Source of the DNA: Campylobacteraceae bacterium
GTDB lineage: Bacteria; Campylobacterota; Campylobacteria; Campylobacterales; Sulfurovaceae
Assembly: GCA_027065385.1 (NCBI GenBank)
Contig: JAMOOP010000163.1
Coordinates: 1 to 64,000, forward strand
Length of the DNA stretch: 64,000 bases
Reading direction: 5' to 3'
Below the pieces are notes generated by a model, which was given only the letters and a program-made list of their open reading frames with translations, did no database searches and was not told where the DNA came from. Below, in pieces: positions 5,391-9,064 of the stretch. The position numbers were made by a program, and so were the translations under genes. Position 1 is the stretch's first letter, and the number at the start of each line of letters is the position of its first letter.

Positions 5391-6302
5391 ATGAAAAAAC
5401 TTTTTTTAATATTGATACCTATTATATTTACAAGCTGTGCTTCAAAAAATCCTATAACTTGGGAAAACAGAGTTACCAATTCACATATTAAACCAATTAA
5501 TTTAGCCTATAATGAGTATGGAAAAGAGAACAATCAAACTATTCTTTTTATTCATGGTTTTGGTGAAAGTAGATACACTTGGCGTTTTATAACTAAGCCA
5601 TTAGCAAAAAAGTATCATTTAGTTACAATTGATTTAAAAGGTTTTGGAGAATCTCCTAAGACAGAAGATGAAGATTACTCTGTCTATGACCAAGCTAAAT
5701 TAATAGAAAATTTTATAAAACAAAAAGGGTTAAAAAATTTAACTATTGTTGGTCGCTCATTTGGTGGTGGTGTTGCTTTAGTTTTAGCTCTTATGCAAGA
5801 GAAAAAGATGTTTAAACATAATATAAATAGACTTATTCTTATAGATACAATGTCATATAAACAGCATCTACCATCTATGATGTGGTTACTACAAAAACCT
5901 ATTATTGGATATTTGGGAATTCATTTACTAAGTGCTGATACTATTGCACTAGAGGCATATAACTTTGCATTTAGTAATGATAAGCTTATTCCAAAAGATA
6001 GCATAACTCAATCTTCTAAAATGATGGATTTACCAAATGCAAAGTATGCTTATAAACAGACAGTAGATTATATTATTCCTGATGATATTGCAAAAGTGGA
6101 AAAGGAGTATAAAGATATTAAAATCCCAACTCTTATAATTTGGGGAAAAGATGATGTATCTATCCCTTATAGATTTGGTATAAGATTACATAGAGATATA
6201 AAAAATAGTAAACTTATACTTTTAAAAGGTGTAGGACACATGCCTCAAGAAGAGTCTCCTAAAAAGGTTATAGAGGCTATAGAGGATTTTATGGCTAGTT
6301 AA
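5391..6302 (+). CDS. Alpha/beta-hydrolase fold lipoprotein
   Basis: A 303-residue alpha/beta hydrolase. The N-terminus is a short lipoprotein signal with cysteine 16 in FTSCAS, so the enzyme is probably anchored in the envelope. The fold is marked by FIHGFGESRYTWRFI (oxyanion region), the nucleophile elbow GRSFGG with serine 123, an acidic residue in WGKDDVSIP and the histidine in GVGHMPQEE, which together give a complete catalytic triad. The substrate is unknown. It converges on the MtnK-HepT gene and overlaps its stop by four bases. Confidence 0.8.
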   Translation: MKKLFLILIPIIFTSCASKNPITWENRVTNSHIKPINLAYNEYGKENNQTILFIHGFGESRYTWRFITKPLAKKYHLVTIDLKGFGESPKTEDEDYSVYDQAKLIENFIKQKGLKNLTIVGRSFGGGVALVLALMQEKKMFKHNINRLILIDTMSYKQHLPSMMWLLQKPIIGYLGIHLLSADTIALEAYNFAFSNDKLIPKDSITQSSKMMDLPNAKYAYKQTVDYIIPDDIAKVEKEYKDIKIPTLIIWGKDDVSIPYRFGIRLHRDIKNSKLILLKGVGHMPQEESPKKVIEAIEDFMAS

Positions 6303-7936
6303 AAAGAGAAATTTTCTATTCTTTGTAGAACTACGCTACTATATTGAGGTTTAGATACTACAAAATTATAAATATCTATATATTTTTTCGATTTTACTAT
6401 ATCTATTAAAATATCTTCTCTAAACTGCATATAGTCATGTATCATACTGTTTCTAAAACCTATAGCACCTACTAGATTGGAATAAGTTTCTGTATCTATT
6501 GCCCCTACTTCATAGAGTATAAATAGTCCATCTCTTCCTCTCTGTGGAATAATTGGACAGTTAAACTCTTTTAAGATTTTTTTACACTTTCCTATCATAT
6601 TCTCTATAAGAACTTGTAAAGAACTTTTTGATGCTCTAATCTCAATAGGATTTAAGCTATCTTTTTCAGATAAGAAATCTAAAATTTTTTTCTCTTCATT
6701 TGCTATCTGTTGGCTTTGATGTAAATCATTACAGTAAGAGATTAACTCATCAACACTTTTAATATTTTCATAATTTAAAATTAGTCTCTTTCCAACTCTA
6801 AGAGCCATAAGTTCAGCCTCTTTTCTTTTTTCTCTATCTTCTATACCTCTAATATCCTCAACACCTGCTATTCCAAATACTCTTCTTGCTATCTTGCACC
6901 CTGCAAAACCTACACTTTGAGAGAATATATTTTGCATAAACTCTTTTTTAAACTCTTCTAACTCCTCTTTATCTATAAATCCATCTTTTAGTAGTGCAGA
7001 GTTTGGGTATTTCTCCCATAACTCTAAAAATTTACTCTCAAATTTACTATAAATCTCTCTTATTGTATCTAATATCCACTCTTGATACTCTCTATTTCCA
7101 CTTCTATAAAAATGGGATATATATGAGTTTATAAGATTTGCTATTAATGCACCAATATCAAACCCAAAAGCACCAACAAAGGCAAACTCTGGGTCTATAA
7201 CAAAACTCTCCTCTCTATTTAACATAATAGAGCCTGTGTGTAAATCTCCATGAAGTAGAGCATCAGTTTGAGTCATAAAGATATATTTTAATTTTAGAAT
7301 ATTTTTTTTATAATCACTCTCTTTAAAAAACTCTTTTGCTTCATTTAATAAATCTAGATTTATATCATTAGTCTTATCTTCCATAAAAGCTAGAGTAAAT
7401 ACAAAATCTTCTGTAAGTTTACATAGTTCTGTGTTTTTATTAAATCTATATATTAACTCTCTCTTCTCTTTACTACTTAGATATAGAGATGATGAGAAAA
7501 AAAGAGTATTGGCTAAAAAGGTAGATATTTGTTCTGCAAAATTTGGATAGTAGATAGTATCTATTAACCCTTTTCTCATAATAATATGTTTAGATAGATT
7601 TTGCATAATAATTAAACTCATACTCTCATCTGCATAATATATTTTTGGTACTAAATTTGGAACTAATTTACTATAAAACTCTAATGCTCTAATCTCATAA
7701 TTCATTCTCTCTCTTGATAGAGAAAATCCTTCCCCTGCTATTCTAAGATATGGAACTGCTTGTTTAACTATTAAGCTCTTTTTATTTGTTCTATTTGTAA
7801 CTATATAGACAAAGTTTAAATTACCATCACCAATTTCACTAACTTCTATATCTTCATTTTCTAAATAATCTTTTATCTCTTTTATATTTAATATATACTT
7901 TTTTACACTATCAATAGTTAATATCTTATATGACAA
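6299..7936 (-). CDS. mtnK: Methylthioribose kinase fused to a C-terminal HepT/DUF86 HEPN domain
   Basis: A 545-residue two-domain protein. Residues 1 to about 400 are a complete 5-methylthioribose kinase of the methionine salvage pathway: EIGDGNLNFVY, LIVKQAVPYLRIAGE, HGDLHTGSI (catalytic loop), FVIDPEFAFVGAFGFDIG and an arginine pair at about 351-352. MtnK is normally about 400 residues. Here a further 145 residues follow, with SLQVLIENMIGKCKKILKE, GAIDTETYSNLVGAIGF and RNSMIHDY (RX4HXY, residues 495-502), which is the HepT/DUF86 HEPN signature with its AMPylatable tyrosine. The start is a TTG at 7936 placed five bases after AAGGAG; a GTG at 7942 would sit on that site. It is the last gene of the pyrH-to-amiC block; no other salvage gene is in the window. 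Confidence 0.87.
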   Translation of the reverse strand: MSYKILTIDSVKKYILNIKEIKDYLENEDIEVSEIGDGNLNFVYIVTNRTNKKSLIVKQAVPYLRIAGEGFSLSRERMNYEIRALEFYSKLVPNLVPKIYYADESMSLIIMQNLSKHIIMRKGLIDTIYYPNFAEQISTFLANTLFFSSSLYLSSKEKRELIYRFNKNTELCKLTEDFVFTLAFMEDKTNDINLDLLNEAKEFFKESDYKKNILKLKYIFMTQTDALLHGDLHTGSIMLNREESFVIDPEFAFVGAFGFDIGALIANLINSYISHFYRSGNREYQEWILDTIREIYSKFESKFLELWEKYPNSALLKDGFIDKEELEEFKKEFMQNIFSQSVGFAGCKIARRVFGIAGVEDIRGIEDREKRKEAELMALRVGKRLILNYENIKSVDELISYCNDLHQSQQIANEEKKILDFLSEKDSLNPIEIRASKSSLQVLIENMIGKCKKILKEFNCPIIPQRGRDGLFILYEVGAIDTETYSNLVGAIGFRNSMIHDYMQFREDILIDIVKSKKYIDIYNFVVSKPQYSSVVLQRIENFSF

Positions 7937-7945
7937 ACTCACTCC

Positions 7946-9064
7946 TTATCTCTTATTTTTCTTTAAATATCTATCTACTCCCTTTGCAATACCATCTGCT
8001 AAAAGAGTTTGATAGTAATCATTTAAAAGATTTTTACCCTCTTTTGGGTGTGTGATATAACCAATTTCCACTAAAATAGATGGCATTTGAGCACCAACTA
8101 ATACCCAAAAATTAGCTCTTTTTACTCCACCATCACCTATAGATTTATAATGTTTTCTTAAGCTATTTAACATATTTCTTCTAACATCTAAACCTAGTTT
8201 ATGAGACTCAACTATTTTTTCTCGATTTAAAAGAGATAAATAAGCATTTTTAGTATAGTAATCTTTATGTTCAAACATTACACTATTCTCTTTTTCAGCT
8301 GCCTCTTTAGCTCTTTTAGATTGTGCAGGTGATAGATAATAAACCTCTATACCTTTAAAAAATTTGGCTTTTCTTTTATTTGGTGCAGCATTAGCGTGAA
8401 CTGATATAAATACATCGGCTCTTTTTTTATTGGCAAATTCAGTTCTTTTAGGAAGTTTTATAAATTTATCTTTATATCTTGTCATATAGACCTTATAGCC
8501 CATATTTTTTAATTTTACTCTTATTTTCCTAGATACACTTAAAACTATCTTTTTCTCATTTCTACCACTACAACATGTAGCACCATTATCTTTTCCACCA
8601 TGTCCTGCATCTATAACTACAATAAAATCTTTTTTATTTTCTATATTAGATATACTCTTTCCAGAAATAGTAGCATCTCTACCATAGATTAAAGGAATAA
8701 CCAAAACTTTACCACTATAGACATGTTTATTAAGTGCTTTTTGTGAAGATTTAATAACTACACGAACCCTTTCGGAATTATTTTGTGCTATTCTAAATGA
8801 GTCTATATTTTTATAACTATGATGAGATATTCCTTTGCCTGAAGGCAGAGTTGCTCCATATATATCATATACATATTTAGTCATACCATCTTCAAGAGGA
8901 ATGGCAAAATATTTTACCCCCTCTATATCAGATGAGAAATATAGCTTTAACTCACCATTTCTTATTTTACTTTTAACAAAATAGTTATCTGCAAATAGAC
9001 TATTTACAGAAAAAACCACGAAAAAAAGCAGTAAAATTTTTTTATTAAGAATTATCTTCTCCAT
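7946..9064 (-). CDS. amiC: N-acetylmuramoyl-L-alanine amidase (AmiC type)
   Basis: A 372-residue periplasmic amidase that removes stem peptides from peptidoglycan during septum splitting. It has a signal peptide, an N-terminal beta-rich AMIN-like domain, and a C-terminal Amidase_3 domain with the zinc ligands in DAGHGG, the glutamate of NEKKIVLSV, SVHANAAPN and the catalytic glutamate in ILVEIGYITHP. An insertion around KRAKEAAEKENSVMFE is the helical segment that autoinhibits this class. The start overlaps the upstream enzyme gene by 20 bases, with GGAGAA upstream. Its position next to tyrS-spoT-rpoZ-pyrH is conserved in Campylobacterota. Confidence 0.9.
   Translation of the reverse strand: MEKIILNKKILLLFFVVFSVNSLFADNYFVKSKIRNGELKLYFSSDIEGVKYFAIPLEDGMTKYVYDIYGATLPSGKGISHHSYKNIDSFRIAQNNSERVRVVIKSSQKALNKHVYSGKVLVIPLIYGRDATISGKSISNIENKKDFIVVIDAGHGGKDNGATCCSGRNEKKIVLSVSRKIRVKLKNMGYKVYMTRYKDKFIKLPKRTEFANKKRADVFISVHANAAPNKRKAKFFKGIEVYYLSPAQSKRAKEAAEKENSVMFEHKDYYTKNAYLSLLNREKIVESHKLGLDVRRNMLNSLRKHYKSIGDGGVKRANFWVLVGAQMPSILVEIGYITHPKEGKNLLNDYYQTLLADGIAKGVDRYLKKNKR

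Follow-up and report, generated by a model that had tools for sequence, protein, structure and literature searches.

HEPN RNases act as dimers, and their active sites form at the HEPN dimer interface. In Ire1 and RNase L, the RNase is activated by nucleotide-dependent dimerization. Both proteins consist of a kinase fold that is followed by a C-terminal KEN-type HEPN RNase (PMC3710099). Another HEPN protein, HepT of the type VII HepT/MntA systems, is an RNase toxin that is silenced by MntA, an enzyme that uses a GSX10DXD motif and polyadenylylates Y104 of the Shewanella HepT, and the exchange R70H abolishes HepT toxicity (PMC7641770). According to a HEPN survey from 2013, fusions of the HepT-type (DUF86) domain are only occasional, the partners being MNT nucleotidyltransferases, a resolvase-like nuclease, and methylases (PMC3710099). 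Methylthioribose (MTR) kinases (MtnK) are homodimers with a bilobal protein-kinase-like fold (PMC2194712). In the literature searched, we found neither MtnK nor any other metabolic kinase fused to HepT/DUF86. Here, we describe such a fusion: both halves belong to known families, and the combination is new to that literature.

The fused mtnK-hepT gene was found in a window of 64,000 nucleotides, i.e., the whole stretch of DNA that was analyzed, of a Campylobacteraceae bacterium, where it occupies positions 6299..7936 of the minus strand. The ORF is uninterrupted from a GTG at 7942 to the stop codon at 6299-6301. The TTG at 7936-7934 is the likelier start codon, because the Shine-Dalgarno-like sequence GGAG precedes it by five bases (7942..7945, minus strand, read from the sequence) and because unfused MtnK orthologues have the N-terminus MSYKIL. 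This start, which gives 545 amino acids plus the stop codon, agrees with the coordinates of the first-pass annotation of this DNA. The same annotation had described the product as an MtnK that is extended by a HepT-type HEPN domain, and this description held: both domains are complete, in frame, and joined without inserted residues, and they scored above the cut-offs of TIGR01767 and PF01934, respectively. The observation is thus confirmed; the kinase-HepT fusion looks genuine and has been found in one genome so far.

The MtnK domain comprises residues 1-401 (6734..7936; this and all following features of the fused gene are on the minus strand), as delimited by TIGR01767, phmmer matches, and conserved columns. 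The score with TIGR01767 (S-methyl-5-thioribose kinase) was 473 bits, compared with a curated cut-off of 275, and the phmmer matches to 2pyw and 2olc stop at residues 401 and 400, respectively. With these two MtnK structures (PDB 2olc, 2pyw) the fusion shares the full domain and all catalytic and MTR-binding motifs, named here according to PMC2194712. These are the G-loop GDGNLNFVY at residues 36-44, the catalytic loop HGDLHTGS at residues 229-236 (7229..7252), the Mg-binding DPE (DXE) motif at residues 248-250 (7187..7195), which is part of an IDPE at residues 247-250, and the MTR-binding RR motif at residues 351-352 (6881..6886). All 92 columns that are conserved in at least 95% of the free MtnK sequences are kept in the fusion (92/92), and the free MtnK of the genus are 75-80% identical to its kinase half. 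As judged from sequence, the fused MtnK probably still acts as a methylthioribose kinase. The other MtnK seen lack a HEPN tail, and their length is about 400-430 amino acids.

Within the genus, mtnK has a patchy distribution; it is present in 7/34 sampled genomes, including that of the window, and stands in several different neighborhoods. In the window genome, mtnA is located away from mtnK on another contig (C30, 433-1440), where the next gene belongs to the class II aldolase family. These three genes are adjacent in genomes G201 and G210. The aldolase-family gene next to mtnA might act in a salvage route for methylthioribose or 5-deoxyribose.

The HepT (DUF86) HEPN domain comprises residues 403-545 (6302..6730), based on PF01934, AlphaFold2, and Foldseek. 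The PF01934 (HepT-like) score was 42.5 bits (E 6e-11), compared with a gathering cut-off of 23.5; the curated equivalog cut-off of NF047751 was not reached (49.1 bits vs 60). The HEPN domain and the full-length protein were modeled separately, both as single chains. The model of the HEPN domain alone (AlphaFold2, with 30 free relatives) had a pLDDT of 94.9, and its top Foldseek hits were the solved Shewanella HepT chains 6m6w, 7bxo, 6m6u, and 5yep. All of the top ten hits were HepT, with TM-scores by target of 0.74-0.84, placing the model within the HEPN fold. The sequence identity to free HepT toxins is about 40-58%, the value for the free HepT of a genome of the same genus being 58%. Because of this identity and the HepT-like fold, the HEPN assignment is not due to chance.

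The first-pass annotation had pointed to an RX4HXY HEPN RNase motif with a modifiable tyrosine, and the alignments bear this out. The sequence RNSMIHDY at residues 495-502 (6431..6454) aligns with the motif of the Shewanella HepT and provides R495, H500, and Y502; this motif is also retained in the relatives. Y502 aligns with Y104, and R468 (6533..6535) with R70, of the Shewanella protein (PMC7641770). The fusion thus has the fold, the RX4HXY motif, and the R70 equivalent in common with the HepT of type VII systems (PF01934; PDB 5yep, 6m6u, 7bxo), and it differs from it in being joined to a metabolic kinase and in lacking the first approximately six residues and an MntA partner. A set of 27 positions, each conserved in at least 95% of 19 free HepT, was used to quantify conservation. 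The fused domain has kept 24/24 of the positions in the body of the protein and has lost only M1, F3, and Y6, which fall within the mntA/hepT overlap of the relatives. In the tree, its branch is the longest among the Campylobacterota relatives (0.54 vs 0.32 for the sister), which could reflect decay. Relative-rate tests were significant in 2/13 comparisons, and barely so (P 0.041 and 0.046); because most of the tests were not significant, they favor neither decay nor constraint of the HepT half.

At the junction (residues ~400-407; 6716..6739), the tail of MtnK runs directly into helix 1 of HepT. The MtnK tail NYENIKSVDELISY is followed at once by CNDLHQSQQIANEEK, the counterpart in the sister HepT being KDYLIHTIDIANEEK. 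An internal start that would yield a separate HepT was considered and rejected, as no ATG, GTG, or TTG precedes residue 449 (547-aa reading), which is already inside the domain. With no start codon near the junction, translation cannot yield a complete HepT on its own. The locus is a clean meeting point of three gene ends, namely the C-terminus of MtnK, the C-terminus of HepT, and a converging hydrolase gene that has the same length as its orthologues. In the full-length model, one continuous helix crosses the junction (residues 395-425), along which the pLDDT falls from about 80 to 55. Beyond residue ~420 this model is poor (pLDDT <50), and the HEPN part and the orientation of the domains carry no confidence. 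Structure prediction, which the first-pass annotation had suggested for relating the two domains, therefore yielded a confident HEPN fold but, given the low interdomain pLDDT, not its placement relative to the kinase.

We analyzed 80 related HepT loci from GTDB contigs. In 78/80 of them, hepT is immediately preceded by an MntA-type nucleotidyltransferase ORF, which overlaps the hepT start in nearly every case. The upstream nucleotidyltransferases of the closest relatives are of the RxYGKTK...GSR...SDYD type. This arrangement identifies the fused HepT as the toxin from a HepT/MntA-type pair. An mtnK gene beside hepT was found at none of the 80 loci. The two loci without a detected upstream MntA ORF are L078 (2950-3282) and L104 (2950-3366); the L078 HepT ORF, of 110 aa, is short and perhaps broken. 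No MntA antitoxin ORF stands beside the fusion, and in a profile search the cognate MntA subfamily was absent from the assembly of the window genome, the best match being a weak one of 21.8 bits on contig C109, next to a HepT remnant. Because the antitoxin is absent, the fusion is not a member of a type VII system. At about 7600-8110, contig C109 encodes a free nucleotidyltransferase followed by a broken HepT-like remnant, which contains two TGA and one TAA within the match in one reading; this is apparently a decaying toxin-antitoxin pair.

Other nucleotidyltransferases are encoded within the window, in three stacked nucleotidyltransferase-type modules on the plus strand (318-2577). One pair (318-1047) consists of a nucleotidyltransferase (318-674) and a PF05168 HEPN protein, and it is followed by a 118-aa ORF without a family match together with AbiEii (1053-2016). 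The third module (2013-2577) had been taken for a free MntA/HepT pair 4 kb away from the fusion. Its first gene does encode a nucleotidyltransferase (2013-2315), which is of the PDC-S09 type and matches the PF01909 and PADLOC PDC-S09 models; the partner, a 96-aa ORF with an RDKISHDY motif, has no family match. The nucleotidyltransferases at 2013-2315 and 318-674 both keep the GSX10DXD motif (GSYARDSATKDSDID and GSYAYGTPNKESDID). They belong to other subfamilies, and neither matched the cognate MntA set significantly.

The occurrence of the fusion was analyzed in overlapping samples of 34 genomes of the genus, 175 of the family, 200 and then 399 of the order, and 397 of the phylum. Across these samples, MtnK was found as a free protein dozens of times and HepT many times, but never in a second fusion. 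In the genus sample, six other genomes contained a free MtnK, which in one case is truncated at a contig end; a free HepT was present in one genome. In the phylum sample, 26 other MtnK scored above the cut-off, with open frames of 391-428 codons versus 548 here. The viral contigs and plasmids searched also did not contain the fusion. Two apparent exceptions were discarded. A match in Caballeronia insecticola reached query residue 469, but the extension is due to chance, because the MtnK ORF there does not continue into a HEPN domain. An apparent HepT with a long C-terminal extension (L080) is probably a gap artefact, because its reading passes through a block of X. In the material searched, the fusion is therefore a singleton; with only one genome found to contain it, a widespread partnership between MtnK and an RNase is unsupported.

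The resemblance to Ire1 and RNase L is one of architecture. The order of a kinase fold and a C-terminal HEPN RNase is the same, but Ire1 and RNase L combine a protein kinase with a KEN-type HEPN domain, whereas the bacterial fusion combines a small-molecule sugar kinase with a DUF86-type HEPN domain. Because both of its domains come from other families, the fusion is not a relative of Ire1, and at most it may work like one. The HEPN domains fused to MNT nucleotidyltransferases, such as GlnD/GlnE and the kanamycin nucleotidyltransferase, are likewise former toxin-antitoxin partners turned into enzyme domains; however, they have typically lost the RNase residues (PMC3710099), which are kept in the fusion, and here the partner is a kinase.

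We tentatively favor, at somewhat less than an even chance, a lineage-specific fusion in which a HepT that has lost its antitoxin is kept in check by being the tethered tail of a functional kinase. An mntA-hepT cassette would have been located downstream of mtnK, and a deletion or rearrangement would have removed the mtnK stop codon, the whole of mntA, and about the first six codons of hepT. From then on, HepT could only have been translated as the C-terminal part of MtnK, which would have continued to function as a methylthioribose kinase. The HEPN domain has kept its RNase residues but would be restrained by its tether, being attached, probably via the continuous helix, to a kinase that dimerizes by itself. 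RNA cutting would consequently be weak or silent, and the cell would survive without the antitoxin. The deletion route, the continued kinase activity, and the restraint are inferred. The intact ORF and motifs, the HepT fold, the lack of a cognate antitoxin, and the singleton distribution are consistent with this reading. The fact that the evidence comes from one draft assembly, the long HepT branch, and the poor full-length model past residue ~420 count against it, and a genome with mtnK beside an mntA-hepT cassette, the presumed precursor, was not found.

Since the fusion was found in a single draft assembly, which consists of 175 contigs and has a contamination of 5.8%, a chimeric assembly or a contaminant join has to be weighed. 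The order of the hydrolase gene and mtnK was not seen in relatives, so a breakpoint does lie at the locus compared with the sister genomes. However, a random join would need to preserve the reading frame and coincide exactly with the mtnK end and the hepT start, and a second clean join would be needed at the end of hepT. The two halves are alike in GC and GC3 (0.273/0.175 and 0.273/0.167), and the assembly contains neither a second mtnK nor a second intact hepT. The amidase and nitronate monooxygenase genes upstream are syntenic with those at an unfused mtnK in genome G204. We consider an artefact to be quite improbable. Very little probability is likewise given to neutralization in trans, in which a non-cognate nucleotidyltransferase, such as the one at 2013-2315 or that at 318-674, would adenylylate Y502 and thereby silence the HEPN domain. 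The target tyrosine and both GSX10DXD motifs are present, but these enzymes belong to other subfamilies with partners of their own. The earlier idea of cross-talk between the fusion and a nearby MntA is weakened accordingly, although the motif of the nearby enzymes would be compatible with it.

Two other readings differ from restraint by the tether in what they assume about the tail. It could be an RNase gated by a ligand, an idea that the first-pass annotation had raised next to that of a kinase that might modify its own HEPN domain. Binding of ATP/ADP or MTR to the kinase cleft would then change the dimer such that two HEPN domains meet and cut RNA. The Ire1-like domain order, the protein-kinase-like fold of MtnK (PMC2194712), the intact RNase residues, and the possibly rigid helix predicted at the junction would fit such a mechanism. 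It is nevertheless unlikely, as no second lineage has the fusion and the interdomain geometry is of low confidence in the model. The more specific proposal of a bacterial counterpart of Ire1/RNase L, in which occupancy by nucleotide or MTR would switch the HepT RNase and the salvage status would control RNA cutting without any antitoxin, is rather doubtful. Alternatively, the fusion might be recent and accidental, and the HEPN tail a passenger without a selected role, which the cell tolerates since the domain is inactive or poorly folded in its new context. Such an origin, also unlikely in our view, would agree with the singleton distribution and the long branch; against it stand the 24 conserved body positions, the retention of every known functional residue, and relative rates that are not consistently raised. 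These counterarguments are not strong, because a very recent fusion would look alike.

For the biology of HepT, a toxin domain that has kept its RNase residues and stands without an antitoxin inside a metabolic enzyme is a natural experiment on the taming of addictive toxins, with tethering, ligand gating, and non-cognate modification as the routes on offer. If the RNase were gated, an Ire1-like architecture would have been built from unrelated parts.
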